From NCBI GenBank assembly GCA_947561395.2, contig OX387184.1, positions 17,464,205 through 17,528,204 on the forward strand: 64,000 bases of DNA, read 5' to 3'. How positions within the stretch are numbered: position 1 is the first letter of the stretch; every line of letters starts with the position of its first letter. This DNA is from Buxus sempervirens. Taxonomy: Eukaryota; Streptophyta; Magnoliopsida; Buxales; Buxaceae. Below the pieces are notes generated by a model. That model worked only from the letters and a program-made list of their open reading frames with translations, searched no databases and was not told the origin of the DNA. Positions 30,033 through 57,294 of the stretch are shown in pieces. The translations under genes and the position numbers were made by a program.

Positions 30033-30174
30033 GTATCCGGTTACTCAGACCGGATACAAGTACTCCTCTGTGTATCCGGTAGAACATACCGGATACAAGC
30101 GGTACTTAGTATATCCGGTATCATATACCGGATACCTTAAGGCCCTTGTGTATCCGGTCTGATATACCGGATAC
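30033..30174 (+). repeat. Four 25-nt hairpins at exactly 39-nt pitch (U3 region)
   Basis: Units start at 30033, 30072, 30111 and 30150, each of form GTATCCGGT-N7-ACCGGATAC (first base of the third differs). Spacers are 14 nt. Loops differ (TACTCAG, AGAACAT, ATCATAT, CTGATAT), so the inverted arms are conserved better than the loops. Confidence 0.95.
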
Positions 30175-30341
30175 ATAAGTTTTGCTCAATGTTAGGGTTT
30201 TCCGAGAGCTTTTCACTTTTACCATTATATCCCTCATTAAATGAGGGGAAATCTCGGAAATAGCCTTAGGGTTAAGGTTGGTGGGCTATAGACCTTAGGT
30301 TGTGTCTACCATTCTCACCAACCCTAACCCTAATCTTTGCC

Positions 30342-30349
30342 TATAAATA
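30342..30349 (+). promoter_or_regulatory. TATA box of the gypsy 5' LTR
   Basis: TATAAATA in GCCTATAAATAGGAGG, the context shared with the other LTRs. Confidence 0.75.
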
Positions 30350-32252
30350 GGAGGCTCCTCCTTAAGCAAAAAAACGAACTCTTGTTTTGAATTCTCGCAA
30401 AGAAGAACTCCAAGAGAAGAAGAAGATCGCTGCGGGAGTGCTTCCAGAATCCAGGTAAGCCTCAAACCTCTCTTTGATTTCTGTATTTACATTCCTAGAT
30501 CTAGATCTCTTCTTCTACCTTTCTGTAGAATAAAGCTTCTTTTTGTGTGTGGAAATCCTTCCCCGGCTCAAAGTATCTCAAGACTCCCCCTAGCCGTAAA
30601 ACGAGAAGGCGGGATCTAGGAGAAACGAGACTGGGGATTGACCTTAGTACTAGAACCTATGTAGCATAAGGCCTTTTGATTGATTGCAAACCGTTCCATA
30701 TTCAAAGTACCCTTGATTATCTTGAAGAACCGTGTTTAACGGGGAGAAAGAACAGAGGGAAACGATAATGGAACAGAACCCTAGGCTATTTTAGAACCTC
30801 ATTTTGATGAAGATATATGCATGCTATGTTGTTCTATTGATCTTGTATGTTTTTTCAAGCTTGCACATACATAGCACTTTTTTGGCGAATAGGCTCACAT
30901 TTGGGGATTTATTACATTCATTGTGATAAATCTCCAATAAATGGCCTCAATCAAATTCTGGAATGTTTTAAATGTTTTTCAAAGGTTTTGAATTCATCCC
31001 ACATGAATCTCACACACTTGATCACAGTTTTGAGTCGGTTTTACTCAAAAAGGGCCTAATTGGACAGCACCTGTACCCTTACTTCGGACGCTCATAACTT
31101 CATCGTCCGGATGAATTTTGGAGCGATTCCAAAACCATGGGAAAGGTGAGGCTGTCTAGTTTATGTCCACCAAATTTCATAAATTTCCATCTAACGGATT
31201 TTTGACACCTCTCTGTCGAAGTTAAGTGGACATTTCAGGTTCAAATACAGAACTTGTCACTTCGACGGAGTGCCATGTATTCTTTTTAAGTCCGATTCGA
31301 GTGATTTTTGTTTCTGAGTACTTATTTATGAGTCTATTTTCAAATCCAGTTGGTTTCATAATTTTTGGATTCCATTTGAATTATTGGTAGCCGATTTACT
31401 CAGAACTGCTCAATGGCATTTTCTGGGTAAATCTGTGATCTTCGGGGCCTGTTCGGGAGACCACCCAAGGCACATCCGAAGGGATTTTTGTATGAGACTA
31501 GTTTCTTTTGAAATATAGCCATACAGACTTCAATCACACCAAATTTCATGGATTTTTATGGAGTGGATTGTTCTATGCAATTTCCCAAAGTTGCCCACTT
31601 ATCACTTTTAAAAATCCCCAGCAGCAACTTCAAAGGAGCATAACTCCTAGGATTTTAATCGGAATGAAGTGAAATTTTGCATGAGGCTTTTATTTACTGT
31701 AATCTTTCAAATGGATTTAGTTTGGTTCAATTTAAAATTGTATTTGAATGATTTCAAGACAAATGTCTTTACTTTTCACTAAATTTTCCGGATTTGATTC
31801 AACTTGGTTTTTTGAGTAACTTGTGCTTTGATTTCCATCTTTTGAGATATTCCAGAAATGATATTGACATAAGAGAGGATCTAGAATCCATTTAGATCTT
31901 CATGTGAAAATATCATACATTGGTCCTTTTTCAAGGTTTTCTATGATTTTAGCAAGCTTTCTATTTTTGCATGAATATACACTTGGCAACCACTTTGTGT
32001 GGATGAATGGGGGTGCCTAACACCTTCCCCCGTTCATAATCTAATCCCCTTACCCATCTCTGGATTTGATTTTCAAGTAGGGTTATTTTTACCTTAGAAT
32101 TTGCCTTTTTTACACTTTTTAATATTTTTGAACTCTTTGGTGCCCATTCTCACCTCAAAATCATGAATGGTGGCGACTCTCCAACTTTTATTTCGAGCCC
32201 CGTGTGTTGACGGAGGGATGATCATTCTGGTGATTTTCCCATGTCTCACAAC

Positions 32253-32271
32253 TGGCGACTCTGCTGGGGAC
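32253..32271 (+). promoter_or_regulatory. Primer binding site of the gypsy element
   Basis: TGGCGACTCTGCTGGGGAC starts two bases after the LTR end. TGG start and position fit a tRNA 3'-end complement. Tat/Ogre elements often use a tRNA-Arg type site of this form, but I state the tRNA only as likely. Confidence 0.75.
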
Positions 32272-34190
32272 TTGTGGATTTAAGCCATTTTGTGTATTTG
32301 TTCATGCTTTTTATTCATTTGGAATGCTTGCTATTTTGATTGTGCATATTGTTGTATTTTGAAATCTGATGAGGATGCTTTATTGGATTATGCCTAGGAT
32401 CATGTTTATGGGCTTATCTTGGTGTGCATGCCTACTTGTTATATTCTTGTACCATGTCTTGTGAGGTTTTAGTGCCATATTTTGAGCATGAAAATAAAGT
32501 GCAAAAATCCAATAGCTCAATGTATATTTTTGGGGTTTCCAAGCATGTTTACCCCCAATTCAAACCTTTCTTGTGCCATACTTTAGGTATTAAATTTCTA
32601 GGCCTTGATTTGGATATGAATGAAGCATGTCGAGTACCAAAGATGAAGAATACTAAACCTGAAAATTCAGTAGATATTTTGGGCCTTTCAAGCATATTTT
32701 CCTCAACAAAACACCTCTTGTACAATACATTTAGGTGCTATATTTTTAGGCTTTGGTTTGGGCATAAAACAATGTCACTTGAGCACAAAAAATGAAGAAC
32801 AAAAATCTGGAAATTTCAGTGTATATTTTGGGGTTTTCAAGCATGTTTCAACCATCAAAACCTTTCTCATATCATGTCAAGTAGTTGTTAAAATTTTTAG
32901 GCTTCAATTTGGATAGAAAGGGTACACTTTGAGCATGAGAAAAAGCATGAAAATCTGGAAATTTGGGGTAATACTTTTGGAGTTTCAAGTATGCCTTCCA
33001 TGTTTTAATTGGTTTGTACAATAACATGCTTTGGGTGTCACTTTTGGTCATAAGCAGGTTTGGGTGTTTACCATCTTGATTGGCTTGTATTTTGCTTTCA
33101 ATATGATAATTGTTTATGCCTTGGCTTGAAATTGAATGCATGGCTACGAAAAGGAGTGGCAAGGGGCTGGGACGTTGTGAATGTTCCCACAATTTTAAAT
33201 TGCACTTGAGCACAATAAACACTTTGCACAACCTACCCTTTTACCTATAGGAAGTTGAACCATGAATGTGTAGCTTGGCGCACCGAGGTCGTGACTTCGA
33301 AAAGCGAAAGTGAAAAAATTCACCTTAGAATTTGAGTCAATGATGTGATGACAATGGGATCTGTGATTCGATTCCGGGCATCACTAGACTTGAATTCTAA
33401 GTTGCCAATTAAGCCAAAACCCAAAAACCATACGCTTGAAGGTGGAGGAACACGTTTTCAGCTAAAAGTACACAATTGCGTTTGGGGAATTGGGTGTAAA
33501 TGTGGGAAGGCCGTTTGCATGTTTTACAGGCCAAGGTATAATGTGAATACCATATTGAATGAAGGTAATACAAGGTGGCAAGGTAAAGCCATGTTCTTTT
33601 CATGAATGTATGAATTGTGGCAAGTATGATGTCCAAGCCCAATCTGGGGCAAGTTTTGAGGGTCAAGTTAAGGTGAACATCAAGTGGGAATGAAAAAAAA
33701 CCTAATCTGGTAAAAAAATGAGTCAAAAATGGCCATTTCGGCATTTACCGGCAACTCAGGCCGGTTAAGAACAATTCTCTTCATATCCGGTATGAAGTAC
33801 CGGATACAAAGGCTTATGCGTATATCCGGTTATTGTTACCGGATACAATAAGCCATAGCCTTATCCGGTACTTCAGACCGGATACATTCAAAAAATGCAC
33901 AAATTGGCTTTTCAGCCCAAATTTTCAGAATAAAATGCCTAAAACACTGTGGATAATCCTTAGGCACCCTGAAAAGAACATAAAAAATGTTCCAAAAATA
34001 CAAAATCAAAAACAAAAAAAAAGACAAAAAAAATAAATAAAATATTCTTTCAAGATTTAACCTAATTTCGAAACTCAAAGAAGGAACCAAGGTGTCATAT
34101 TTTTTGATACCAACTCAATTCAAACATATGTCAGTCAAACTTTTGAACTTGAAAACTGAGAAAATTCAGCAAATTTGAAAAAAAAATAAT
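32272..34190 (+). other. Long untranslated leader of the gypsy element
   Basis: No long frames. It contains repeated phrases around TTTTGGGGTTTCAAGCATGTTT (near 32525, 32690, 32830 and 32985) that suggest an old 150-bp-scale tandem structure, and the second hairpin cluster. Long leaders before gag are typical of Tat/Ogre elements. Confidence 0.6.
33744..33885 (+). repeat. Second hairpin cluster of the gypsy element, 39-nt pitch
   Basis: Units start at 33744 (diverged, TTACCGGC...GCCGGTTAA type), 33783, 33822 and 33861. The last three have TATCCGGT-N7-ACCGGATAC. The same 25-nt unit and 39-nt pitch as at 30033-30174, but outside the LTR and 1.3 kb before gag. Confidence 0.95.
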
Positions 34191-34199
34191 AAAAAAAAG

Positions 34200-34876
34200 A
34201 AACCTTTGGTTGGTTATTTTTACCAATCAAATCAAATCTTTTTGGGACACTTGGAAGCCCTAGAATATTCCAAGAAACCTTTGGTTGGTTATTTTTATCA
34301 ATCAAATCAAAACATTTGTGGGACACTTGGAAGCCCTAGAATATTCCATGAAAACCTTGGTTGGTTATTTTTATCAATCAAATCAAAAAAATAGGACATT
34401 TGGAAGCATCAGAATATTCCAAAAACCTTTGGTTGGTTATTTTTATCAATCAAAGTCAAAAATTTTTAGGACATTTGGAAGCCTCAGAATATTCCAAGAA
34501 CCTTTGTTTGGTCACGAGAATCACTCAAAGTCAAATCTTTTTAGAACATTTGGAAGCCTCAGAATATTCCAAGAACCTTTGTTTGGTCACGAGTACCACT
34601 CAAAGTCAAATCTTTTTAGGACATTTGGAAGCCTCAGAATATTCCAAGAACCTTTGTTTGGTCACGAGAACCACTCAAAGTCAATTTTTTTTAGGATCTT
34701 TGGAAGCCTCAGAATATTCCAAAAACCTTTGTTTGGTCACGAGTACCACTCAAAGTCAATTTTTTTTAGGACCTTTGGAAGCCTCAGAATATTCCAAAAA
34801 CCTTTGTTTGGTCACGAGTACCACTCAAAGTCAAATCTTTTTAGGACATTTGGAAGCCTCAGAATATTCCAAGCAA
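34200..34876 (+). repeat. 75-bp tandem repeat, nine copies, before gag
   Basis: Unit contains GAACCTTTGTTTGGTCACGA, GTACCACTCAAAGTCAAATC, TTTTTAGGACATTTGGAAGC and CTCAGAATATTCCAA. Copies repeat every 73-76 bp. The first three or four carry GGTTGGTTATTTTTATCAA instead of the GTCACGAG part. Because 75 is a multiple of three, a frame of about 200 codons with a 25-residue repeat (FRTFGSLRIFQEPLFGHEYH) stays open. I do not call it a gene. Confidence 0.92.
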
Positions 34877-35059
34877 AAAAAAATATATAAAAAAATAAAA
34901 AACAAAAAAATCTGGGCTGGTGTTCACCTGACCTACTTATCTACATTTATAGGTGTGTGACTCAGATTAAATGGGAGCTGACATGTTTCTTTGCTTTTCT
35001 TTCACCAGGTACATTTATTTGCAACCATTGCTCCCGTGACCAGATCTAAAGCGAGAGCC

Positions 35060-37311
35060 ATGAATACGGAGGAGAACCAAGCCCAAGCCACCGTACCTAC
35101 TCAGGACTTTGCTCAGCTGCAAGAGCAGGTGGCCGGTCTGGCCAAGATGCTGGGAGACTTACTGGCAGCTCAGGCCCAACAGGCTCAAGCCCAAAATCAA
35201 GCATCGACTTCTCATCAGGCACCACCATCGCAGGCCTACATGCCGCCTCCGGCTCAACCCATGCCTGAGCCCGTTTCTGAACCGGTCCCTGAACCCATTC
35301 TGATCAGGGAAAATACCGCAGAATCTGAGAAAGAGCTGGAGAAAGAAAAGGCTAGGGAAGAAATGGAAAAGAAAATGCTACTCAGGATAGAAAGAATCCA
35401 GGCAGAGCTGAAGGAGGTGAAGGGGGGAAGCAGCCATGGAGGCACCACCTTTGAAGATCTATGCATGTATCCTGACGTATGTCTACCGGCCAAGTTCAGG
35501 TGCCTGGACTTCGACAAATTTGATGGCACGGGCTGCCCATTGAGCCACTTGAAGTTATACTGCGGGGCCTTGTGCCAATTTGGCCGGGATGACGGCATAC
35601 CGATCCAACTCTTCCAAAGGAGTCTGACCGGGTCAGCTCTTAGGTGGTTCGCTACAGTGGACCATGGAAGGATCAGGAGGTGGAAGGACTTAGCCAACGC
35701 CTTCTTAGACCAATATAAATTCAACTCGGAGATTGTGCCAGACCGGTACGACATGATGAGGATGAGCAAGGGGAAGGATGAGCCGGTACGGCAGTACGCC
35801 AAGAGGTGGAGAGAGGCCGCCTCCCAGGTCAGGCCACCTATGCAAGAACCGGAGATGATCTCCACATTCATGGGCACACTGGGGCAGCCTTTCTACAACC
35901 ATCTGGTGGGCCAAATCACCACCAACTTTGCAGCCTTGGTACAGGTGGCGGACCGGATCGAAGAAGGGGTCAGGTCACGAAGGCTGATAGACTACTCTAC
36001 TCTGACTGGGCAGTCTGATTCCTCGGCCTCCATGGCCCAGAAGAAGGGAACCGGGTTCAAGAAGACAGGGGCCCGAAAAGAAGGGGAGGTGAACCTGGTC
36101 CAGGCTCCTCCAGCCAAGAAGCCACTTCATGTGAACATCTCGGCACCCCAACAAGCCCAGCAGGCCCAGCAATCGTACAAAACCCTGCACAATGTCAATT
36201 TCTCCCCTTCCGTGCCTGCAAACCAGAGGAGGGTCTTTACTAAGGAGGAACGGGAGGCCTGGGTGGCAGCAAGGAGGAATAGAGTCTTTACTCCTCTCCC
36301 GATATCGCTGTCCCAACTGCTGCCAACCCTGCTGAAGGGGGAGTATTTAACTCTGAAAGAGCCCAACCCGAATGCCCCGAAGGGGAGGAATTTTGATCCA
36401 GCAATCACATGCGATTATCACATGGGTGCACTGGGGCATTCTACTAACACTTGTTGGATGCTGAAGCATGCGGTCCAGGACTTGTTGGACCAAAAGGCTT
36501 GGTCTTTAACACTGCTGCACCCGCCCCGTCGGGAAATGATATTGGGCAGAACCCTCTGCCATACCACAATGGGGCAGGCCCATCCAACTCCATCACCGCC
36601 ATATCCACCACGAGAAGGGCCTTTGACCCATCTCAGCTTATAGCACCAGTGGGGACCACAGTCCAGGTCCATTTCTTCCAAGAGGAGGAGGAAGAGGAGA
36701 TCAACATGGTCTCCCAAAAAAATAATAATCCTGCTGCTGAGGACATAAGTTCCTCTCTAAACCGGGTCTCTTCACTCATGGTCCAGATGAATACTGCAAG
36801 GCCCCCATTGGTCTTCAATTGCAGTCCACCCATCTATTCACCATCCAAGCCGTCCAAGGCTCCACTGGTCATCAACCTTAACCCCACCACTGCTTCCATC
36901 ACTTCTTCTGTCCCCACAAAATCCAAACTTCAACCCTTGGTTGTAAATGTTCAGCCAGCCCAAACTATCCCTAAACCGGCCCATACATCCCGGTCCAAAC
37001 TCCAGCCGTTGGTGGTCAACATCCCTAAATTAGCCTATTCTGAGGCCGCTGTACCATGGAATTACAGCGAGGGAATCACGGCTACGGTTCCAGTGGTTAG
37101 GAACCAGAACCAGGAGGAGGTGAACCTCATGACGAGGTCGGGGAGATGTGCAGGGGGTGAAGAGAAAGAGAAGGAGACAGAAGTAGAAAAAGAAAAAAAA
37201 GAAAATGAAGAAAAAAGAAAACAGAAAGGAAAAACAAAAATAGGAGAAGACATCCCCAAGGGTGCAGAAAATGAGGCAGCAGACCTCATTAAAATAATTA
37301 AGAAAAGTTAA
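35060..37311 (+). pseudogene. gag: Gag of a Tat/Ogre-type Ty3/gypsy element, frameshifted
   Basis: Start ATG 35060 (MNTEENQAQ) follows APVTRSKARA, the usual TRS motif near the gag start. There is a coiled, Gln/Pro-rich N-terminus, a charged helix (residues about 85-130), then the retrotransposon gag core: FDGTGCPLSHLKLYCGALCQ, SLTGSALRWFATVD, YAKRWREAASQVRPPMQEPE. Next comes the knuckle-like CDYHMGALGHSTNTCWMLKH. At about 36490 the frame changes, and the continuing frame (GLVFNTAAPAPSGNDIGQNP) runs to TAA at 37311 through a linker with EEVNLMTRSGR and an E/K-rich tail. Gag forms the virus-like particle. One frameshift and later stops show a dead copy. Confidence 0.85.
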
Positions 37312-37938
37312 TTCAATCTTGTGGATCAGCTGAACAAGGTCCCGGCCCAGATTTCAATACTGGGCCTTTTGCTCAATTCTGAAAAGCACAGGGATGCATT
37401 GTTAAGGGTGCTACAGAGTGCACATGTATCCCAGACCATTGATCCAGACCAGCTTGGCAAAATGGTTGGTCAAATCTTGTCACATAATGTGATAAGTTTC
37501 TCAGAGGGTGAGATCAGCCCAGGTGGGTGCTATCATGTTGACCCTTTGCACATCACAGTGCTTTGTAAGGGCTGCATGATCGCACGGGTTTTAATTGACA
37601 ACGGGTCGGCATTAAACGTTTGCCCGTTAATCACTTTTACCAAGCTGGGTCTGGACCAGTCAAGGATCAAACGAAATGGGCGGATAGTGAGGGCTTTCGA
37701 TAGCTCCAAGACCCACTCCCTAGGGGAGATTGAACTGCCGGTCACAATTGGGCCGAATATCTTCAACATCACATTTGAGGTGATGGATATACCCGCAGCC
37801 TTCAATCTGCTCCTAGGAAGGCCATGGATACATTCGGCTAGGGCAATACCATCCACGCTCCACCAAAGGGTGAAATATGTAAGAGGGCAAAGGGTGATAA
37901 CAGTCCTAGCCGAAAACTTGGTGCCTCCCATTGTGTAA
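37312..37938 (+). pseudogene. Aspartic protease region of the gypsy polyprotein
   Basis: Continues the gag-linker frame after the TAA at 37309-37311. A conserved helix region LLLNSEKHRDALLRVLQSAH is followed by the retropepsin fold: GCMIARVLIDNGSALNVCPL with DNGS in place of D(T/S)G, and FNLLLGRPWIHSARAIPSTL. This arrangement is typical of the Tat/Ogre lineage. It ends at TAA 37938. Confidence 0.85.
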
Positions 37939-38765
37939 CCTGACGTACCCTTGATAAATGTAGACTTGACTGTCGACAAGATTGCATTTCACTCATTTCA
38001 ATTTGAGGCGGTCAATTACATACCTGGGGGGTGTGAGAAAGAAAAAAGAAAATGAACAACTGCAGAAAATATGGTGAAGAAAGTGATGGAAAAATACCAC
38101 TTTCACCCGGGGAAAGGCCTGGGGATCAATCTGCAGGGGATGGTGGAGCCAATCACGGCTAAGAAATTGATCCCCAAGGTAGGGTTGGGCTTCAAGCCCA
38201 GAGGTTGGAGGAGAATGAAGCATGAGGAGGGGGAGAGCAGAAGCAAAGGAAAACTCCCACATCTGAGGGTGAATTTTCCAAGACCCTCCTATACAATCCA
38301 ACTGTCTCCTCCCATGGACCAGTCCAAACCCTCGTACCGAAACATCAACCCATTTCAAAAGCCTTCTGTTTCAGCCTTGCAGCCATATAGCCCATCCCCA
38401 ATATAGGGAGCAACAGATGGGCCTGGGCCACAGCCCGAGCAGCAGGTGGACTTTTCTGAGGATGTTGGTGCATTCTTCACTATGACTGAGGGCGATGAAA
38501 CTGGTAGTGACAACGAGCTACCTTTCATTGACTGGGCCGCAGTAAAGATTCCGGATGAGGTTGTATCTGGATTGGGCCCCGTAGCAGAAAAGGGCAGTAC
38601 CCACCCGATGATGATGGCATCAGATGCTGGGCTTGAGGGGCAGGCTTTCCCTATTTCCCTCGCTCCCCAAAATTTTGTATTAAACAATTGGGAGGAAACT
38701 CCTGTTACCTTTGAAGCAGCGTTAGTTCGGCAAACTGACGCGGCTTCCAAAAAAAAACTCCAATA
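37939..38765 (+). pseudogene. Protease-RT linker of the gypsy polyprotein, broken
   Basis: Frames at 38071-38406 (KYHFHPGKGLGINLQGMVEP, a G-patch-like segment) and 38446-38766 (acidic, EDVGAFFTMTEGDE) are separated by stop codons. Such a linker precedes RT in this lineage. No catalytic motif is expected or seen. Confidence 0.65.
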
Positions 38766-40530
38766 GTGGAATGCCATTTCCCTGAAGGTTTTAACGGGCC
38801 TTCGTCTTCAGGGGGATTATGTTTAGAGGGCCCACAAAAAACCCAAAAAGATTTTTCTATTTTTTCCAGGAAATTTAATTTTTTCAAAAAGGTCCAAACC
38901 ACTTATGAACCATATAATCAAACCGAATTGGACCAGGTTGAATATGACTTCGACCTTGAGCTCGACTTTGATCTCATGGGGATCGAAGAAGAGACCGAGG
39001 TCAAAGAAGAAGACATTCCAAAAGAAATTGAATACCAATTAGAACGTCATGAAAATGGGGTCCAACCTAATATTGAGGAGACCATATCCATAAATCTTGG
39101 GACCGAAGATGACCAAAAAATTGTGAAAATCGGGTCATGCTTGTCTAATGTGCAGCAAAATGAAATGACACAGTTCTTGGCAGACTACAAAGATGTGTTC
39201 GCTTGGTCATATCGGGACATGCCGGGGTTGGACACTGACATGGTGGTGCATAAGTTGCCAATTTTTCCAGGGGTTAATCCGATTAAGCAGAAGCTGAGAA
39301 GATTGAAGCCGAAATGGACCTTAAAGGTCAAGGACGAAGTGGTCAAACAATTTCAAGCCGGATTTTTGGCAGTCCCTACGTACCTGGAGTGGCTCGCAAA
39401 CATAGTGCCGGTACCAAAGAAGAACGGGAAAGTCCGAATGTGCGTGGATTATAGAGACTTAAACAGGGCAAGCCCAAAGGACGATTTTCCGCTTCCACAC
39501 ATCGACATTCTGGTCGATAATACTGCGGTACATAGCCTGTTCTCTTTCATGGATGGGTTCTCGGGATATAATCAGATCAAGATGGCTAAGGAGGATCAAG
39601 AAAAAATGGCATTTATCACACCTTGGGGCACATTCCACTACACAGTCATGCCATTTGGGCTTAAAAACGCTGGGGCAACATACCAGCGGGCCATGACTGC
39701 ACTATTCCATGACATGATCCATAAGGAGATGGAGGTCTACGTGGATGATATGATTGCCAAATCATGCAAATAGGAGGACCACTTGATCAATCTGAAGAAA
39801 GTGTTTGATCGGCTCAGGAAGTACAGTCTACGGCTTAACCCGGCTAAGTGCGTCTTTGGGGCTACATTAGGGAAGTTACTGGGGTTTATAGTGAGCCGAA
39901 GAGGAATTGAAATTGACCCGGCAAAAGCCAAGGCCATAATTGAAATGCCAGCACCCAGAACTGAGAAGGAGGTCAGGGGTTTTCTTGGAAGGATTCAATA
40001 CATAAGCCGGTTCATAGCACAGCTCACTGCTATCTGTGAACCAATTTTCAAACTTTTGAGGAAAGATAACCCGACGGTCTGGAATGAGGACTGCCAGCAA
40101 GCATTTGGCACAATAAAGAGGTATTTGCTGAACCCACCTGTGCTAGTGCCACCAACTCCAGGAAGACCGTTGATCCTGTACTTGTCAGTGTTGGAAACGT
40201 CGATGGGATGTGTCTTGGGGCAGCATGATGAGACTGGTAGAAAAGAAAGGGCAATTTACTATCTGAGTAAAAAATTCACAGAATATGAAGCCAAATACTC
40301 ACCATTGGAGAAGACTTGCTGTGCTCTAGTGTGGGCCACTTAGAGGCTAAGGCATTACTTCCTTAGTCACTCCACACTATTGATATCCCGGATGGACCCG
40401 TTGAAATATTTATTTGAGAAACCAGCACTAACTGGCAGGATGGCAAAGTGGCAACTACTACTGTCCGAATTTGATCTCACGTACGTCACTCAGAAGGCAA
40501 TCAAGGGTCAAGCCATAGAGGATTCCGATG
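38766..40530 (+). pseudogene. pol: Reverse transcriptase and RNase H of the gypsy element, with two TAG codons
   Basis: One frame throughout. RT shows SYRDMPGLDTDMVVHKLPIF, MCVDYRDLNRASPKDDFPLP, FMDGFSGYNQIKMAKEDQEK, TVMPFGLKNAGATYQRAM and the catalytic YVDD (MEVYVDDMIAKS). The attached RNase H gives ETSMGCVLGQHDE, AIYYLSKKFTEYEAKYSPLE and WQLLLSEFDLTYVTQKAIKG. Two in-frame TAG stops lie at 39771 and 40341; the second stands where WATQRL is usual. After QKAIKGQAI the sequence leaves the element at about 40530; integrase and the 3' LTR are missing. Lineage Tat/Ogre is judged from the RT motifs and the long leader. Confidence 0.9.
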
Positions 40531-41571
40531 CGAATCAGCCACCAAACTTCATATCATTGATAGAGGATTCCGATATGGTTCTAATGGCATCAAGTTTTCC
40601 CAAATCGGAGTCCAGATGAAGAAGTCATGAGCTGGTCAAATCTGGGAATAGTAGAAATCGACTTTACGCTAAACCTCAGATTAGCTGTCTGATCTGGCCC
40701 CGGCAGAATAAGTACTTCGACACGATTCTAACGCAACCAAGTTTGCTGGAATCGGGGTCCCGGATCAGGAGATATGAGCAAAACCGGCTCCCGGGGAGCA
40801 TTTTTTACTTTCCGCTAAAAACTGATTTAGTAGCCCAATTTTGTCCCCGCAGGTAGAGATTTCTGACACGATTCCAACGCAACTGAGTTTTCTGGAATCA
40901 AAGTCCCGAATAAAGAAGTTATGGGCCAGTAAAACCTGGAAATAGCAGAAATTGGTTTTCTGCTAAACCCCAGATCAATCACCCAAACTTATGTCAACCA
41001 AAAGAGCATCTCGACACGATTCCAACACAACTGAATTTGCTGGAATCGGGGTATCGGATTAAAAGATATGAGCAAAACTGTCTTTGGAGGAGCAGTTTCG
41101 CATTTCTGCTAAAAATCCGAATTTTCTACTAAACTTTGGCTCAGTGGGTAAAGCATTTCGTATTGATTCCAATGCCACTAAGTTTGCTGGAATCGAATAC
41201 CAAATGGGAGAGTTATGAGCAGTCAAAATTTCGGAAAATCTGCACACGTGGCAAATATTGAAACAAAAGCAATAAAGTAAAAAGTTTTGAATTAAAAAAT
41301 AATATTTTTATTAAAAATCTAATTAAGGTATTTAATTTAAATAAAAAAGAAAATAAAAAAGGCAAAGCACGCATGTGCGTCAAAACAAAAAAAATCTCTC
41401 ATTAAAATAATTAATAAAATCAAATAATATCTAACAATTTAAATAAATATAAAATAAAAGAAAAAGAAAAATTAATAAAAAATTTGAATTCAGCACATGG
41501 GGGATGAGATGTCCCCCATGAGCTATCCAAGATAAGAACAAGACTGGATGCGTGTGAACATTTCAGGGTTC

Positions 41572-41638
41572 TATGTGTAACCAAAATTTAATTTCGGTTA
41601 CACATAAAACCCTCTTAACCGACATATACTGTCGGATC
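41572..41638 (+). repeat. Hairpins upstream of the TATA box in the truncated LTR
   Basis: First hairpin 41572-41606 has arms TATGTGTAACC and GGTTACACATA around an A/T core. The second (CCGACATA-TA-CTGTCGG, 41619-41635) is weaker. Their centres are 38 nt apart and the TATA box follows 18 bp later. Confidence 0.85.
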
Positions 41639-41655
41639 ACTTTTTTTTTTTTGTT

Positions 41656-41663
41656 TATAAATA
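41656..41663 (+). promoter_or_regulatory. TATA box of the truncated LTR
   Basis: TATAAATA, followed by GGGGGCCCAGCCCCCC, the same layout as the solo LTR (TATAAAAGGGGGCCAGCCCCCC). Confidence 0.75.
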
Positions 41664-42154
41664 GGGGGCCCAGCCCCCCGTCCTTCACTCCTGGCTCCCT
41701 CATTTTCTCCAGCCGCCTCACCCTGTCCGAATCATCCCAAAACCACTTTCAAACCCCATTTCAAGCCCCAAATCATTCTTAAACCACATTCAATTTCTTT
41801 TCCTTCTTCACCCTTTTATTTCAAGCACCAAGAAGGGGCCTAGAAGAGCCTTTGGAGAGGAGGAGGTGCTATCCAAGTCCAAAGGAAGATCAAGAGTACT
41901 CCAAACAATTTTGTAAACCCAAGGTGAGTTCCCTTGTGCTATTTCATTCAACATATATAAATGTGAGTCCATTTGGAGCATGTAGGTCCTCATACATGCT
42001 GTAATATTCTGTTTGTGTATGGTATGTGTGTTTTCTTCTCATTTTATTATCTCTTCATGTCTTTTATGGACCATCACCCTTCTAAGGTAAGAAAGGTAAG
42101 CTTCCGGTAGTTTAAAGTGAGGAAGAGAGGACTTCTTAGTTGATCTAAATGGTC

Positions 42155-43388: not shown

Positions 43389-43837
43389 ACGCACAACAAA
43401 AAAAGGAACTTTTAGTGACGGACCAAGACCGCCGCTAAAAGTCCAGCCTAACAACGCCTGTCCACCGAAGATTCCTCTGTCGTTGATTCTTTCAGCGGCC
43501 GACCACCGCTAAAGCCTCTTTTTGTTTTTTTCTGCTATAAATCGACCCTATACCCTCTTTTTTCTAATTTTTACCCGCCGCCACCACACACCCCCCCAAC
43601 CCCCCAAAACAAAAACACTCGCACGCATTAGGGCGCCCCCAAACCCGTACCCTCTCTACCCGTACCCGACCCCCACCACCCCTCCTCTTTCTCTCTTACT
43701 CGCAATCGCCTAAATTACACTAGATTAATTAAAAAAAATTAATTTGCAAATTAAGAAAAAAAAACATTAATTTGAAACTTGTAGTTTCCGTTACAATATT
43801 AGTACCAAGCAAAAAAAAAAACATGTTTTGTGACATT

Positions 43838-44796: not shown

Positions 44797-44844
<48 letters not shown>

Positions 44845-47698: not shown

Positions 47699-49365
47699 TC
47701 TACACCTGCATGTCATCTCTGCAGAGCAGCTGAAGTGCAGTGTGAGCTGAACATTGTCAAATTCTTTATTGTAAATAAAACAGGAAATGGGGTTCGCAGT
47801 AAAAAGGCCATAAGCTGAAATATGTTCCTCAAAGCATATAACCCAACAGAAAATCAAAAATTTCCATGGAAATCATGAACAAGATGTAAACCCAACAGAA
47901 AATCAAAATAATGAAGAGTATAACATCACTCAATCTTCACCAAGGTCTAATCCAACTTCAACATCAAGATCTGTGCATGGCTGTTAGACTGAAGACTCCA
48001 TCACATATAAAGCTACAAAAAAGATTATTATGTAGGTCACCCATGAATGCATGGTTGATCTACCACGAGTCATTAAGTCTGCAGGTACTCACTAGGTGGG
48101 TGGGAATTGGCGGAGAGACAAAGTTACAACCAGAAAAGAACCCAATTGCCTTTCCTTCAAGTGAAGGGACAATGATCGAGTCTCATTAATGTCATCAAAC
48201 AAAATAAATAAATGTGTATAAAGCAGGTATTCTCATGATTTTAGTCAAAACTCAACACCACCAACTCCACTCTCTATTATACCAAAGTCCACTAAACTTC
48301 TTGCTATGTGGTTTCCACCCAATTAATTTTTTTCTTTTTCCACACCAATCATGAATTTTTGTAATGAGATTCTTGAGGCCTTTGACCCACTGCTGGAGTG
48401 GGTAGGTAGATTGATGAAGAAACCTATAAGTAATTACGTCTTTGTTCACCTACCATTTACTAGCTGGAAGGAAGCATCAAGCAAAGTTTAAAAAAGGGCA
48501 GCAAACAAATTTCAAATATGAGAGAGATTGATGGTCCAATAGGCAGCAAACAAAGACTAATTAAAACTTCGTTCAGTTTGGCTTCCCATTAGTAAAGTTT
48601 AGTTCTCTGAATGGACTCATCTTTCTTCTCTGGTCATGCGTTCCCAGCACTTTTATTCCTTTGTGTTGAGGAGAAGAGCCTTCACTTGCAAGCTTGGTGA
48701 AACTTTCAAAGAGATAGTCAAAGCATATTCTAAGAGAACTCAAATCAGTATTCTCTATCGTCGTAATCAGTCATATGGCTAATATGCAAACCTATATAAA
48801 CACCATTATATATATTAGTAGTTGAGTAATAGATTTTGTCATTAATAATACTGGACACCTAATTCTTTAACGTTTTCCAAGTCTTGCACAAGTTAGTCTT
48901 AAGGGAGCCCTTCACATGAAAATTTTTATTGGGCTGAAACTTAGTATGTGGAATTGATCAGTTGCCCTTTACTTGGGGCATTTAAACAACCTGAAATTAT
49001 TTAAGGACCAAAACTACCAAGATTAGATAGTTTTCACTGGAATTTCAATCTAATCACAATCTTTTTCATCTTCTCTTTATACCAATTGACCTTGCCAGAA
49101 TAGAACCTATATTAACAAGTATGTTTATCTTCTTAAACTTTAGTTTTTTGTGCAAATATTTATCATCTTAACCAGTGATGGCGATCATATGCTGTGTATT
49201 TGAAAATCAATTATAAACAAGAACAAAAAATAATTGTTGATGTAAACATTTAGTAAATGATTATAATTAGGAATAAAAAACAAAATATTGAAGATAAAGG
49301 ACCAAAGGGAGAAGGGGAGTGGGTGTTGAGGAAAATTACCTTCATTGTAGTTGTGGGGTCACCAG
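47699..49365. other. Interior of the outer CACTA, no supported gene
   Basis: AT-rich with short open frames (such as 47911-48189) that show no known domain. The CCCAACAGAAAATCAAAA phrase is repeated at 47840 and 47890. Confidence 0.35.
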
Positions 49366-50038
49366 ATAGTATACCCGTGTTTCAAGAGGACCTCATTGAA
49401 CCAAGGAAGAATCAACTTCAGTAACTAATTGCTTCTTCTTCTCCCACCAAGTTTATGTGATTAGATTCATCTATATCTTTATCTCCACTGATGTGGTTTT
49501 GCAGAAAATAAGAAGGAAATGATAAGAAATATAAATGTACCAAAATTTTGTCTTTCCTTTTCCGTTTAAAAAAAATTGATGATGGAATATGGAAAGTTAC
49601 CTGCAGATAATGGATCTGCGGAGAGACATTGCAGACAGATATAGAAGGCCCATATAGGAAATTGCAGAAATTAAGCTGTAAAAAAAAGGGAAGATCGATC
49701 AATAGAGTTTTTGCTTTAAAACAGTAAGCCAGTGAAGAGAAGTCAGTTCTTTTGGTAGTTTTTTATTACCTTACGTTGAAATCTTCAATGTAGGAAGAAA
49801 AGAGCAGGATAAATGATCCAATTCCAAACACAAATGCTGTTTTGGGTATATCTCTCCACATTACCAAGTCCACTGAATAGATATGCAGAGATCAAAGGCC
49901 AAATATAAAATTAGGAACTTTAACCTCAAAAGGTTAAGAATTGAAGCTATAGAATCTGATTCATAAATCAAAACTCACCAATGCTTTGTAGTCTGTTTTG
50001 GATTGCTTGGATTTTCTTGCGTTCCTCTTCAACTGTAA
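49366..50038 (-). pseudogene. Reticulon-like protein (RTNLB) fragment captured by the CACTA, four exons
   Basis: Reticulons shape tubular endoplasmic reticulum with hydrophobic hairpins. Minus-strand exons with GT-AG sites: 50038-49979 (VEEERKKIQAIQNRLQSI), 49872-49770 (VDLVMWRDIPKTAFVFGIGS then FILLFSSYIEDFNV), 49675-49601 (SLISAISYMGLLYLSAMSLR) and 49487-49418 (GDKDIDESNHINLVGEEEA). The joins keep the frame: SI|VDLVMW and NV|SLISAIS. After EEEA the frame is shifted; another frame continues LLKLILPWFNEVLLK, the usual next part, to about 49366. The N-terminal region of a normal reticulon and the end are missing. Lying inside the CACTA with introns, it is best read as transduplicated host sequence. 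The last frameshift suggests no full product. Confidence 0.82.
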
Positions 50039-50320
50039 CTGCAACTGAAAGTAGACAATTGAGGTAAAAATACAAGAATGATTTAAGCATCAACTAATAA
50101 CCCCAAATCCAGACACCAAAAAAATCAACAAATAAGTACAGAGATCGAGGGGGTTGTTCGAACCTCCACCGTCGAATCACCTTAAGCAACAATCTTCAAT
50201 CACCTTAGCAACAAACTGCAAAATCATTGGAAACAAAACAAAGATCATAACAAAACCCTAACAGATCGGAATATGAAAAAAAAATTTCCAGGGGCAGAGA
50301 GCGAGCGAGATGCAAACAAC

Positions 50321-50323
<3 letters not shown>

Positions 50324-50365
<42 letters not shown>
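50324..50365. repeat. (GA)n microsatellite
   Basis: Twenty-one GA units; on the reticulon strand this is a (CT)n run about 290 bp upstream of the first exon, as in a gene leader. Confidence 0.95.
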
Positions 50366-50367
<2 letters not shown>

Positions 50368-50922
50368 AATGAGAATCGGATTACATGCATGAATCTAAAC
50401 TATATGCTCGAATCTCTATCATTGGATTTCTGCGCTTGTCGAGTCACTTTAAGCGATGAACTGGAATCACCTAAGCCAACGAAATGCAAGATCAATGAAA
50501 AAACACACGCACACGTGCGAATCAGAATGTCAACAAAATCCAAAGAGATTAGATCGGCAAACAAAATCCAAAGAGAAATTTACCTCTTTGATTTTGCTTT
50601 GAAGAGCAAGAGATTGAAAATAATGGCCTGCGAGAGGGAAGATCGGAAGGAAGAGAGAGATGAGTCACAGGGCAGAGTAGCAGATTGGAAGGTGCTTTGA
50701 TTTTGCTTTGAAGGCCAATAGATTCAAAGAGATGGAGAGAATAGGATTAGGGCAGAGTCAAACGAGATGAAGAAAATAGGATTAGTGCAGGGTGGAGTCG
50801 CATGGGCTCTCATTAGGGCGGAGTGGGGGTCGACAAAATAATTACTTTTAGCAGCGGTCTTTAAATGAACGCTGCTGAAGGTGTCTTAATCCCCGCCGCT
50901 AGAGACCCTTTTTTTTGTAGTG
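50366..50922. other. Right subterminal part of the outer CACTA
   Basis: A short open frame at 50389-50700 without known domain. Repeated phrases TTTGATTTTGCTTTGAAG (50588, 50697) and GATTAGGGCAGAGT / GATTAGTGCAGGGT, then the GCTGCTAAAAG subterminal motif and terminus. Confidence 0.4.
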
Positions 50923-51482
50923 ACATATGCACTTTGATGCAAAGCATGTCTAATGGAGCATGTCTCATCATGGTTTAGCTTCAACTAAGATGCTATTTTT
51001 CTATTGTATGAGATCACTCCATTAAGTTCTGTACACATCTTATTTGCATTTGTTTAGATAAAGTGTGCATGCATGGAAATCATATTTTGATTCTTAAGTT
51101 GCCTATTTTGTTATTTAGTTCAATCTTATCTTGAAAGTGTGTTATTTTATTTATTTTTTATTTTTTTTGTGATATTCTTGCATGTGTATGAAGGTTTGTT
51201 TCTTTTGAGAGCAAAAGACCAAAACAGGGATGCTTGATCCCTGTTTATGTGTTGGGTTCAGTCCAAAAGAAAGGAAAGGGAGGAAGTCCCCATCCATCTT
51301 CCTTAGATTGATCTTAAGAACCCCAAAGGTGAGGTAGGTTGACTTCATCTAGACCATTGTGGGCCCACACAGACCTTATGCATGCCCACAAACACCAAGG
51401 ATTAGTTCTTTGTCGAAAATTGCAAAAAAATGATTTTTTACAATTAACCAAAAACTCAGATCGGATATGGGGATTTTCTAGC

Positions 51483-51585
51483 TTAGCCGAAATTTATTTT
51501 CGACTAAACTAGAAATGCAATATAGCCGAAATTAATTTTCGGCTATATTGTATCCCTTGTATATCCGAAATAAATTTTCGGATAC
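51483..51585 (+). repeat. Hairpin cluster in the 3' half of the truncated LTR, 39-nt pitch
   Basis: Three inverted repeats are centred at 51495, 51534 and 51573, exactly 39 nt apart: TTAGCCGAAA...TTTCGACTAA, ATAGCCGAAA...TTTCGGCTAT, TATCCGAAA...TTTCGGATA. The core CCGAAAT/ATTTCGG is shared, but the outer bases differ between units, and both arms of a unit usually change together. Confidence 0.95.
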
Positions 51586-52667
51586 ATTTAAAAATTTACT
51601 AATAAATCAGATTTTTAAATGTTTATTAATTAATTGATTTGTTCAACTTAACCAGGTGAACCAACAGGGTTTCTGGGTCAACCGCAAACCCGAAATGGCC
51701 CACGGGCTGGTAAGCCCAATTTAATTCCTTAGTGGGCCTTCCAACGAGGCCCACCCAGCCCAAGATCATTTTTGAAAATAAATAAGATAATTAAAACAAG
51801 TTAAATGGGCCAAACCCTTTGAGGCCCATCAAAAACCCAAATGAATGCATGCAGGCTTAGCATAAGCATGGTTTGGCCGAGACCATGGGCTAGGGCCTGT
51901 CGGGCCCACCAAGCCCACTAACCCAATCAAGAAGGGTTCAATACCCTTACTCATCCAATATTAGACCACCTGGTCCAAGTCTCGGCTATGGGCCCCAAGC
52001 CTAAGGTCCAGCTCACTTTGGAAATTAAATAAGATAAATAAATAAAATAATTTTGGGTAACTATGGTGAAGCCCACCCAATGGGCCCACCAAACTATTCA
52101 AACCAACGTGGAATAAAATTTAATTTAAATCCTACTTAAACCATAATTAAAAATGAATTAAATTAACCAAAGCCCAAAGGGCCTTTTTAGGTTTAGTTAA
52201 GGCCCATTAGGGGACATGTGGGCTGTATCAAGTCCACCAGGGTATCCGTGGACCTGCCAGCGGGATCCACCCAATCCGACCCAGGTAACTTAAATAATTA
52301 AGATAAAATAAAATAAATGGGACCACACTTGCAGAAAGATCCCCATTCAAACCTAATAAAAATATATACTGGTTTAGGACAAAAAGGGTGAGTATAGAGT
52401 TGACTTGATAACTAGGAAGACCCGAGGGACCCGTCAACCGATGGGGTGGACCGGGGTATCTTCAGACTTCCCCGGACCGTAACCGAGAGCTTAGCCGGAA
52501 TCTCAAAAAATTGCAGACCAACCAAAGTAGACAAACTTAGGGCACCCTGGTGTCCGCCTGCACCCCATCAGGCGGTGGCGATTCCTATTTCCCCATTTTC
52601 CCTTCGGAGGTACGCACATAGTGGAAAACCACCCATGCGCCTCGCCGTGAAATCTCACATGCGCACA

Positions 52668-53095
52668 GATGCCATATGATTAGGTGAAGGGATGTCTGCT
52701 TCATTATAAGGATATATAGGCTCAAGAACTCTGGGTATCCCTAATATCTGAGAGATGACATCAGGGGTGATCGAAAATGTTTGACCACGAACATAAATTG
52801 AAAATGCTGGAGGGGTAATGGACCAAGCAAGCATGTTTGCGTAGAACTCCCGAACTATGATGGGTTGAGGAGGTGTAAGATCTTTGAGCATAGGACCCCA
52901 ACCCCTAGAAGTAAAAACTGAAGTAATATCGGGATCAAGCTCCTTGATTATTACCTCCTACTCAAACAAAAGAGGCTGGTTGTGAAGGTAATTACGAAAC
53001 CTATCCTATGTAGGGCAGTCTAAGAAAATTGACTCATCTAGTGGAGGAAGTGTGTTAGACCTAGACCAACTGGTGAATTTACGTTTTTTAGGCAT
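52668..53095 (-). pseudogene. Putative plant transposon protein domain fragment, cut by the LTR
   Basis: Minus strand from ATG 53095: MPKKRKFTSWSRSN, then after two in-frame stops SVFTSRGWGPMLKDLTPPQP, IIVREFYANMLAWSITPPAF, YVRGQTFSITPDVISQILGI. This is the pattern of the plant transposon protein domain (often annotated Transposase_32) found in many retroelement-derived ORFs: VREFYANM followed by a VRGxxFxxxPxxIxxxLGIP segment. The frame ends at 52667 where the LTR end joins. It is 3'-truncated and carries stops. Confidence 0.7.
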
Positions 53096-54089
53096 CTGCA
53101 AAAAAAATATAGAACAACATCCTGTTAAAGCAATTAATAAAAAATGCATGTATTTACTTGTAAACAAGACATTGGCATATAGAAAATCACAGAGCTATGG
53201 GAAAATTTTAATAATGTTTACGTACTCAATGGACTATTGAGTATGTAAAGTTATGGGACTAAGTTCTTATTGAAGCCATAAAAGAGAAGGTTAGCAACAA
53301 ATTGTAAATAAAATTGAAAGACAAGTTCGCTACGAAATGAAGAATTGCAATTTACATTAGTGGGTTCTAGGCTTTTGTTAATTTTATTTCCATGGTGAGT
53401 TCATTTTTTAAGAAAGATGTTAAACACTCCAACCAAAAGAAAACGAAAAAAAAAATTGCCATAACAGATACAATCCACTCAAAAAATTTTTAATGGAGAT
53501 TAGAATTAAACAAATTTTTACTAAGTCTAAGATTTCACTCTTTCCATATCCCTTTGTTTTTTGGTAAACACTCTTCCCATATCACACTAAGTAAAATTGC
53601 TAGCAATGTAGGTTCAGAAGCACTAGAAACATTCGAAACTTATCACTAACAAAAACCGTTTGGCAAAAAACTACTCTATTCAAAACAGAAAACATCACAA
53701 GACGGGAAAAAAATACGCAACAATAACGAGGCCCCCAAATGCAGAAAGGTAAAAAGGCAAAAAAAAAATCAATCAGACATGATTCTCTCTCTGTAATGCA
53801 TCACCCTCAAGTATAATAACATATAAACAGAACTAAATCAAAACTTAAAACATGAAAAAAAAAGAAATATCTGCACATACCTTGGACGAAAGCAAAAAGG
53901 CCCTAGATCTGATCCCAACAAGAACATCGAAGACGTTGAGAGCTATAGGAAAAAAATTTAAGTTGAGATTGAGGAGAGGTGAGTTGGAAGGCAATGACTT
54001 GGAAGATGAATGGAAGTGAAATGACGCAATGCGAATAAAATGCAGCGCACAAAAGTCTTTAGGAATTTTTTTTTGGTTGTTTTTTAGTT
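53096..54089. other. Upstream flank of the transposon-protein fragment, no gene
   Basis: AT-rich, no domain or defined repeat. A purine-rich stretch at 53930-54020 could be a leader of the fragment on the minus strand. Confidence 0.35.
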
Positions 54090-54475
54090 TTCACGCTTGA
54101 GCGGGCACAAATCGCCCCAATCATGTCACTCTCGGGTTTCTGAGTTTTTCAAAAAAAATTTGAATTAATGCTCGAGCAGGCACAAATCGCCCGAATCACG
54201 TCACTCTCGGGTTTTTGGGTTTTTTAAAAAATTGCCTTGATGTTCAAGCGGGTGCAAATCACCCCAATAATGTCACTCTTGGGTTTCTGGGTTTTTTCAA
54301 AAAATTGCCTTGACGCTTGAACGGGCGCAAATCATCCCAATCATGTCACTCTCAGGTTTCCGAGTTTTTTCAAAAAATTTCCTTAACGCTCGAGCGGGTG
54401 CAAATGGCCCCAGTAACATCACTCTCAAGTTTTTTGAGTTTTTTAAAACCTCCTTGTTGCTCGAGTGGCTGTAAA
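54090..54475. repeat. 73-bp tandem repeat, about five copies
   Basis: Units at 54101, 54176, 54248, 54321 and 54394 share GCTYGAGCGGGCRCAAATCG, CCCCAATCATGTCACTCTCG and GGTTTYTGRGTTTTTT. Divergence of about one in six bases, non-coding. Confidence 0.92.
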
Positions 54476-54569
54476 TCTTCCAGAAATTGGTAAAAAAAGT
54501 ATGAGAATTGAGTTTTGCTGCTCAAGTGATCACAAAATGTGAAGTAATCGTCACCCTTGGGTTTTTGAG

Positions 54570-55022
54570 AAATCTTTATACATGAGGGGACTTGTAACCA
54601 AACATGAGTGAACTAATAACAAGGCTTTGGTGGACTTGTAACCAAGCATAAGTGAACTTGTGAAACACATGAGCATGTGTGGACTTGTAACCAAGCATGG
54701 GTGGACTTGTAACCATGCATATGAGGACTTGTAACCAGGCATACATGGACTTGTAACTAGGTATGAGTGAACTTGTGAAACACATGAGCATGAGTGGACT
54801 TGTAACCACGCATAAGAGGACTTGTCATGAAGCATGAGTGGACTTGTAACCAAGCATGAGAATGAACTGACTTGTAACAAGGCATGAGTGGACTTGTTAC
54901 CAAGCATGTGAGGAATTGTAACCAAGTATGCATTGACTTGTGACCAATCATGAGTGAACTTGTGAAACGCATGAGCATGGGTGGACTTGTAACCATGCAT
55001 GTGAGGGCTTGTAAGCAGGCAT
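54570..55022. repeat. 22-bp satellite array, left part
   Basis: About 20 copies of a unit with core GTGGACTTGTAACCAAGC plus ATGA, with some units longer by the 6-bp ATGAGC. Because three units (66 bp) are divisible by three, all minus-strand frames stay open in long stretches; these are not genes. The array resumes at 58131 after the insertion. Confidence 0.95.
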
Positions 55023-56987
55023 TGTGAGACATGGAAAATCACCTAGATGACTTCCTAATCATCACACGGGGTTCATAGAAGGTTGGAGTCACCACCATTC
55101 AATTTAAGGTGTAAATGGACACCAGAGGGAGCATAAAAATGTAAAAAAAAAAATAGAGCCAAAGTAGCTCTTATGGTTAAATCCAGAGATCAGGTAAGAG
55201 GATTAGGTTATGAGTAGGGGAAGGTGTTAGGCACCACCACTCATCCACACAGGGTGATTGCCATATGTTGTTCATATTTTAAAGTGCTTGCTAACAAAAT
55301 CAATCAACAGGGCTTGAAAAGAACCAAATACATGCGTGATTTCTCCATATGAGTAGTCCAATGGATCCCGGACGCTCTCTATGGATGTATCACCTCTAGG
55401 ACTTCATAATCAAGTAAAAAAACAAATTCAAAACCTGAAGAAATTCAAATGAAAACAAATTTGAAAAATCAACTCAAGATTAAATCATAAGCTTGAAAAC
55501 TTCAATCAATTATAAATCCTTCGATTCAAACTTAAATTGAATGAAACCAAAGCCATTTGAAAGCTGGTATGAAACAGAAGACTCAGTAAAATTTTTAATT
55601 AAATCTGATTCAAATCAGAAGAGATATACTTGTTTGAAATCTGCTGTTGTAAACCAGTAAAAGTGACAAGTAGGCAACTTTCAAAACCTATTTGTGGAGA
55701 TCGGCTTCATATAAATCCTTAAAAATTTTCATGAATGAAGTATGAAGTGTCATATTTCAAATGAAATAGGCCTCACACAAACTTCATCCATTAGTGGCTT
55801 GTGTGCCCTCTCAAACATGCTCAGAGGATCACAGATTGACTCTGTTTTCTGCTACTGAGCAGTTCTTTAGAGTCAATCAAACACACAGAACTCAAATCAA
55901 AGTGAAAACTCTTAAAACCAATGAATTTGAAAATATACTCATAATGGAAAACACAGAGATTAAAATCACTTAAATCGGAGTTAAAATGAGCAATTAGCGC
56001 TCAATAAAAGTGTCAAGTTCAGTAGTCTAATATGAACTGACCTATCAACTTTGATCAGGTGGTATCAAAAATTGGCTCCATATAAATTGCTCAAATTTGC
56101 CAATAACTAAACATCGTCACTTATCACATACCTTTTGAATCACTTAAAAATTCATCCGAATGATGAAGTTATGAACAATCTAAGACAGGGTACAGATTCA
56201 GTCCAGATTTGAAAACTTAGAGTAAAAGTGAGACAAAATAGTGAGTGTGTGAACTTGATTCGATTGATCAGAATTGAAAACACTTGTAAAGAATTGGAAA
56301 ACCTTCAAAACAACTTTAAGGTAAGGATTTAGCTCAAACCTCTCATTGATTGGAAAGGAGGAGCCAAATCTATCCACATTGAGGCAAAAAGCCCAAAATG
56401 AAGAGTTTGAACCATGGGGTCTCTATTGAAGATGAAATTGCTTGAAAATAACTCATGAAGTCCTAAGGGATTATTCTAAGGCCCCCCGATCTCAGATCTA
56501 CCATATTGAGCATGGTAGATCCAAGATCTAAGCATACTTTGACAAAAATCAAGTGATACTTGTGTGGTTGTGTAGGAAATCTAATTTTTAGGAGAAGATT
56601 GGGATCCAATGCTATAGAGAGCATTGATCCTTGTATCCTCTCCAGATTTAGAAATCAAAACAATCACAAACATCAACCATACACAAATCCATATAATCAT
56701 ACCATTCCCATACTCGTTTCCCCTAGCTCTCTCTTCACGTTTTACAACTAGAGATGGTGATTGAGGTGCTTTGAGAGAGGTTTAGGGTTTCAAACACAAT
56801 CAAGCCTTATGCCACAAAAAGGAAGAAGATGAGAGAATGATTGTAATGAAGTAAAAAGGAGAGAAAAAGTATAGGAGCTCACCTTAAGTACTTGAAAGAC
56901 TTGAGCAAAGAATTGGGTAGAGCTTCCCTTCTTCTTCAAGAGCCTTAGACTTCAAATTTACCAGCCATTTGCAAGAGCAGGGCCTTC

Positions 56988-56995
56988 TATTTATA
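56988..56995 (-). promoter_or_regulatory. TATA box of the LTR inside the fold-back
   Basis: Minus-strand TATAAATA in TTTGCCTATAAATAGAAGGCCC, the layout shared by the other LTRs. Confidence 0.75.
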
Positions 56996-57191
56996 GGCAA
57001 AGCCAAGGGTTGGATAGTCACAAGGGCAGATACAAAAATGTGTCTAGAACCTTCAAACTCATCTCTAAAGCATGAATTGGGGTAATTTGGCCAATTTCGA
57101 AGGTCAAATTGGACAATTCCCACCTCCTAGATAGAGGTATGGCTGTAAATAAAAGAGATACCACGGGGTTTTTCAATTTGAAGTAAAAACA

Positions 57192-57294
57192 GTATAACCG
57201 AAAACACAGTTCGATTATACTAAACAACCCTTATAACCGAAATAAAATTTCAGTTATAGGCGAAACAAAGCTTAACTGAAATTACATTTTGGTT
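57192..57294 (-). repeat. Three hairpins at 39-nt pitch in the fold-back LTR
   Basis: Centres at 57206, 57245 and 57284, exactly 39 nt apart. Arms: GTATAACCGAA / TTCGATTATAC, TATAACCGAAAT / ATTTCAGTTATA, and AACTGAAAT / ATTTTGGTT. On the LTR's own strand they lie about 200-300 bp upstream of the TATA box. Confidence 0.92.

Follow-up and report, generated by a model that had tools for sequence, protein, structure and literature searches.

Arrays of four palindromes at a 39-bp pitch recur at three sites of Ogre-like retrotransposons in Buxus sempervirens and are candidate operators

Why should short palindromes stand at one constant spacing in several retrotransposon sequences of a single genomic stretch? 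The question is raised by 64,000 nt of Buxus sempervirens DNA (contig OX387184.1, 17,464,205-17,528,204; hereafter the window), in which the original prediction, made from the letters alone, named 14 inverted repeats in four clusters within and near the long terminal repeats (LTRs) of retrotransposons. An inverted repeat is present at each of these centres, and neighbours within a cluster lie exactly 39 nt apart throughout. Scored over eight pairs per unit (offsets 4-11, counted from the centre), pairing of the arms is complete in nine of the 14 units (30045, 30084, 30123, 30162, 33795, 33834, 33873, 51534 and 51573), reaches 7/8 in four (33756, 51495, 57206 and 57245) and has decayed to 5/8 at 57284. 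An additional decayed unit at 51456 (5/8) had been overlooked, meaning that the third cluster also consists of four units. The arrays are as follows.

30032..30175, plus strand: array 1, in U3, four palindromic units centred at 30045, 30084, 30123 and 30162, all four 8/8
33743..33886, plus strand: array 2, in the leader, units centred at 33756, 33795, 33834 and 33873, scoring 7/8, 8/8, 8/8 and 8/8
51443..51586, no strand assigned: array 3, units at 51456 (decayed), 51495, 51534 and 51573, scoring 5, 7, 8 and 8 of 8
57193..57297, minus strand: array 4, in U3, units at 57284 (decayed), 57245 and 57206, scoring 5, 7 and 7 of 8

Over the window minus an AT microsatellite (3291-3960), nine pairs of centres are separated by 39 nt, against a mean of 0.02 and a maximum of 1 in 100 dinucleotide shuffles, and no other distance from 24 to 80 nt reaches three pairs except 78 (2 x 39; five pairs). 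The claim that stems are unrelated between clusters was not borne out: units have in common a CCG/CGG core at offsets 8-6 and TA at offsets 11-10, single units being decayed, and the dyad CCG-N11-CGG is common to all stems. As the arrays align in register, and the loop ACTCAG is common to the first units of clusters 1-3, they are homologous.

The same pitch dominates across the host genome (676.5 Mb). The exact palindrome TATCCGGT-N7-ACCGGATA occurs 8968 times, and its control, the pattern read backwards, not once. Many matches being copies of one another, the counts are not of independent events: 5657 of the 5767 neighbouring arms (ACCGGATA...TATCCGGT, gaps 1-31) have the gap of 16 that equals a pitch of 39 (98%), as have 962 (control 2) of the 1574 (control 189) neighbours with CCGAA-type stems (TTCGGNTA...TANCCGAA, gaps 1-31). 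The CCGAA-type pitch peaks sharply at 39, and 38 forms a satellite, the 50 places listed comprising, by our own count, 29 at 39, 16 at 38, four at 27 and one at 29. Neighbour distances in 20 genomic stretches with arrays are 39 in 63/68 and 38 in three, with 83 and 174 found once each. The sharp genome-wide peak that the original prediction had anticipated is therefore present, and its proposal of selection on the geometry agrees with a pitch of 39 being kept between units whose spacers are only about 39-46% identical. It had also considered that the clusters might be recent copies of one array; shared ancestry was found, but not recent copying of one another.

What is conserved inside the arrays is the arms. 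Within-array identity between units averages 0.90 for arms, 0.38 for loops and 0.39 for spacers over 19 arrays from nine elements or remnants, and 0.874, 0.429 and 0.456 when pooled over unit pairs of 27 arrays; both sets were entered by hand, one source listing held only centres lying in chains, and most of their arrays were chosen by patterns demanding perfect arms in one unit or unit pair. The larger set omits L047 and L053 (which overlap L046 and L052), E3-E5 (close copies of E1) and the single-unit L054b. No such pattern bias attaches to the window arrays, to the U3 and leader arrays of a second family described below, or to a sample drawn by protein search, also below. In the window, identity is 1.00 for arms, 0.40 for the loop and 0.42 for the spacer of the U3 array of the first element, and 0.79-0.84, 0.29-0.57 and 0.28-0.33, respectively, for the other three arrays (random background 0.26).

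Palindromy survives sequence change. Watson-Crick pairs make up 91% of the arm pairs in 91 distinct units (shuffle mean 74%), and paired cells that differ on both sides from the commonest pair number 100, against a shuffle mean of 34 and maximum of 47, the shuffles ignoring the relatedness of units. Stem letters at offsets 4, 5 and 9 agree within the 27 arrays beyond all 2000 permutations, offset 5 being partly fixed by the CCGAA search pattern and offsets 4 and 9 free of it; some agreement is seen at offsets 12 and 18 (2 and 4 of 2000 permutations), and the remaining loop and spacer offsets tested show no outstanding agreement. Hence, contrary to what had been supposed, the stem sequence does not vary freely: the CCG core hardly changes, and where letters do vary they agree within an array and across the three sites of an element. 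Most arm mismatches may be neutral decay; in the CCG core 19/22 are C-to-T or G-to-A, an excess expected from the decay of methylated cytosines. Whole hairpins also seem to invert, the first-unit hairpin occurring in both orientations in sister copies (L023 unit 397 and L036 unit 324 are exact reverse complements).

Where the arrays lie depends on the anatomy of their carrier, for which the window supplies these features.

29942..~32249, plus strand: LTR of the first element, starting TGTAGACACC (TG start), end approximate and followed by the motif two lines below
30342..30349, plus strand: presumed sense TATA box, TATAAATA, 180 nt past the last array-1 unit centre
32253..32270, plus strand: primer-binding-site-like motif, an 18/18 match to what we take to be the reference motif
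34982..36643, plus strand: gag reading frame (PF03732, E 3.2e-11)
38739..40343, plus strand: reverse transcriptase and RNase H frames (PF00078, PF17919, PF17917)
55021..57305, minus strand: LTR of a related element, forming one arm of a fold-back; identity with the first LTR 67% (1340 columns)
56988..56995, minus strand: presumed TATA box of that LTR, TATAAATA on the minus strand, within the aligned stretch

The succession of LTR, primer-binding-site-like motif, gag, reverse transcriptase and RNase H identifies cluster 1 as U3 and cluster 2 as leader of one element. The earlier names for them, gypsy U3 and gypsy leader, therefore stand as two places in a single element, with cluster 1 in its LTR and cluster 2 outside it, between the primer-binding-site-like motif and gag. 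The sequence hosting array 3 is LTR-like or leader-like and belongs to another element, in register with arrays 1 and 2. The open pol frames of the window element stop at 40343. A genomic copy, scanned in two pieces, has the order RVT_1, RT_RNaseH, RVT_3 (an additional RNase H) and rve (integrase), with antisense plant mobile domain (PMD) genes between pol and the 3' LTR. Two traits of the Ogre clade are thus found, the additional RNase H between RNase H and integrase, and a PMD extra open reading frame (ORF), with PF10536 in two antisense genes (E 5.9e-13 and 4.6e-14); PMD is found in 57% of Ogre elements (PMC6317226). Separate reading frames are seen, and by its layout the carrier is classed as an Ogre-like Tat retrotransposon. 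The first LTR is 86% identical to a genomic LTR whose own pair is identical, and the LTR pairs of six copies are 99.4-100% identical (680-2271 bp compared), indicating that the carrier family was active recently.

Five elements were read at all three sites (E1, E2, E4, E5 and E7), and each has arrays in U3, leader and post-pol region; in E1 and E2 the U3 array is followed by the leader array at a distance of 3.7 kb. About 25 nt separate the end of the third array from a TATA box facing an antisense gene, gene Y, which encodes PMD/DUF7745 and then a later stretch reading by eye as coiled coil. Upstream of gene Y stands another antisense PMD gene, gene X (L043:472-1708; L024:6917-7348). For a sample free of any palindrome pattern, the genome was searched with the Y protein, giving 144 scored matches of 8186 candidates, 128 of them (own count) without a stop, and upstream stretches were taken for 20, about every sixth row from the second. 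Exactly four units precede the antisense PMD gene in 19 of the 20, with distances of 39 in 45/57 and 38 in 12/57, and in 19/19 the last unit centre and the TATA box are 25 nt apart. The sampled Y copies are 92-97% identical to the query, and so alike that the sample shows regularity, not independent origins.

A second family provides the comparison between different stems. Its antisense gene (L055) is preceded by an array with CCGAAAT stems, has a TATA box 23 nt from the last unit and encodes a Y homologue 71-84% identical over matched pieces. Its 3' LTR array was found at the place forecast from orientation, in the first stretch taken (L060), and its leader array at the forecast place once gag was located (L061, then L062), the latter decayed to arm scores of 5, 4, 7 and 7 of 8; in the part read of L063, taken for the 5' LTR array, there was none. 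CCGA stems occur at all three sites of this family, the offset-5 pair being A:T in 11/12 units over the three sites (one C:T), whereas it is G:C in 23/24 units of two CCGGT elements of the first family (one A:C). Families with TAACCG-type stems (L046, L048, L058) have further units 95-206 nt upstream of the U3 array, which in L048 and L058 lie outside the LTR by alignment.

Common stems, free loops and spacers, joint stem change at sites kilobases apart, the dyad, the constant pitch and the fixed TATA distance all argue for operators. From them we infer that the arrays may be bound by a sequence-specific dimeric protein that controls transcription in both directions, sense and antisense, and is perhaps the PMD protein of the element itself, a proposition that we regard as evenly poised. 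An array would comprise four palindromic sites with a half-site of about TA-N-CCG and centres 39 bp apart, and the dimer would recognise them as double-stranded DNA. Since the arrays of an element lie in U3 upstream of the sense TATA box, in the leader and about 25 bp from the TATA box of the antisense PMD gene, one factor could jointly govern sense transcription and the antisense gene. Among the functions originally suggested, paired sites for a dimeric protein fit best.

The most economical candidate for this factor is the PMD protein, because the element carries it and an array stands at its promoter. The preferred form of the proposal is therefore that a dimeric protein from gene Y may be a sequence-specific DNA regulator whose operators are the arrays of the sense promoter, of the leader and of its own antisense promoter, protein and sites having co-evolved across families, and that its binding would result in autoregulation or anti-silencing. 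This more specific version is held tentatively, and several observations weigh against it or against operators in general. Firstly, the association of arrays with PMD genes is imperfect: one sampled PMD gene of the 20 (L067) shows no array, none was found at the start of gene X, and in a third family (TAACCG stems, L058/L064) no PMD gene was found in the next 6 kb. Secondly, no TATA box was seen by eye beside the leader array. Thirdly, Pfam recognises no DNA-binding domain in the PMD proteins, and searching the PDB by sequence gave only four weak esterase matches for gene Y (best E 0.092) and none for gene X. Fourthly, the DNA helix makes a turn in about 10.5 bp, such that 39 bp is about 3.7 turns and the sites would not lie on one face. 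In the protein database no relative of gene Y was found, and gene X, in a search that scored only the 8000 candidates sharing most words, matched three PMD proteins, two named MAIN-LIKE 1-like, from Camellia sinensis, at 23-28% identity.

The same operator arrays could instead be read by a host transcription factor, in which case the element would have recruited a host dimer to its two promoters, with the PMD gene just one of the genes driven. All the DNA-level evidence holds equally for such a factor, and the third family, with arrays and no PMD gene found nearby, fits it. However, stem letters differ between families in one genome and change together at three sites, which is easier to explain with a factor carried by each family itself, and we consider a host factor rather unlikely.

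Distinctly less probable is that the arrays act as RNA hairpins in the leader and at the 3' end of the genomic RNA, in packaging, translation or export, or as a source of small RNA. Predicted folds are very stable (z -8.95 and -10.2), and genomic RNA includes the leader array and would have the U3 array at its 3' end. Yet these folds do not form four separate hairpins in arrays 1 and 2: the loop of unit 1 (ACTCAG) is complementary in part to that of unit 4 (CTGA) (30028-30180, 33740-33890), with the consequence that predicted folds pair unit 1 with unit 4 in array 1, and unit 2 with unit 4 in array 2. Moreover, G.U-type mismatches (18) are no commoner than A.C-type (19), giving no sign of tolerance at the RNA level; the presumed antisense transcript does not include the third array, which precedes the antisense TATA box; a role as hairpins would not by itself require every unit to have one stem sequence; and Rfam 15 gives 0 matches at gathering score in window 29000-58500. 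The folded-RNA option in the original prediction is weakened accordingly.

It is very improbable that the arrays have no function and are an old 39-bp tandem duplication whose palindromes stay perfect because template switching between the arms, in reverse transcription or replication, corrects them. Although all arrays are homologous and whole-hairpin inversions seem to occur, such arm correction would explain neither a pitch maintained over diverged spacers, nor the placing of arrays 25 nt from an antisense TATA box, nor common stem letters in the units and sites of one element.

Other repeats were noted as well. Just upstream of gag, the leader contains nearly nine copies of a 75-bp tandem repeat (window 34221-34873), and the second family has similar tandem repeats in the same position. 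The fold-back at 55023-58130 consists of the 3' halves of two inverted LTRs, about 84-96% complementary, with a 22-bp tandem repeat arrayed on either side, both arrays running in the same direction. A further inverted repeat, a large one (13742-16881), has arms of >1.1 kb, in several blocks 96-99% complementary, around a 0.9-kb centre, and a AACCGCACTTGAAGTGCGGTT palindrome cluster (7074-7299) has a pitch unrelated to that of the arrays. Against viral contigs, gag and reverse transcriptase queries found no relative, and the palindrome pattern matched seven stretches with one site each.

Palindromic dimer sites at a constant pitch have a precedent in the EBNA1 family of repeats, where several such sites control the DNA of their own element; the element, sequence, pitch and protein are unrelated, making this an analogy only. 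A search of open-licence papers found no description of four-palindrome arrays of 39-nt pitch, and none is mentioned in the excerpted account of the Ogre clade with PMD extra ORFs (PMC6317226). Antisense genes between pol and the 3' LTR are likewise found in Retand (TRP28 ORFs; PMC11963269) and maize Grande (gene23, with its own promoter; PMC7264820), and their proteins are predicted to be DNA-binding or nuclear, with a regulatory role proposed. They differ in having another protein domain (TRP28, PF04195), and the excerpts of both reports name no target sites and call the function of these genes unknown or undetermined (PMC11963269, PMC7264820).

There is a likeness in logic to the anti-silencing system of VANDAL elements and VANC proteins in Arabidopsis (PMC5735166), where an element-encoded protein has repeated short non-coding target motifs that change together between families. 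The elements here have the corresponding feature, a repeated motif in their own non-coding regions that co-changes, in two families and at three sites. VANDAL differs in being a DNA transposon with a 9-base motif in variable-number tandem repeats and an unrelated protein (PMC5735166), whereas the arrays here are palindromes, in four units at a fixed pitch. Hence element-encoded proteins with co-evolving repeated targets are already known, and so are antisense genes in this lineage, in the accounts consulted without targets. The PMD proteins of the element belong to the same Pfam domain family as MAIN and MAIL1 (PMC7156037, PMC9899485), and Arabidopsis PMD proteins are linked to promoters, gene control and silencing (PMC7156037, PMC9899485), with direct contact of MAIN/MAIL1 with DNA or chromatin described as not known (PMC9899485). 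The PMD-linked 'DOWN' motif CATGCAGTTT (PMC9899485), tried as an array stem, shows no resemblance by eye.

For the antisense genes that plant Tat-lineage retrotransposons carry (PMD in Ogre, TRP28 in Retand, gene23 in Grande), no target has been established. The arrays supply a precise candidate: four palindromes, spaced 39 bp, that stop 25 bp short of the antisense TATA box, thousands of such sites being present in one genome. The natural stem change between CCGGT and CCGA makes this candidate testable against the protein of each family. The finding also has a bearing on the recognition targets of domesticated PMD proteins, MAIN/MAIL1 among them, which a 2023 report gave as unknown (PMC9899485). 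If the preferred proposal is true, the plant mobile domain would gain a biochemical target, and Ogre elements would possess a built-in transcriptional circuit.

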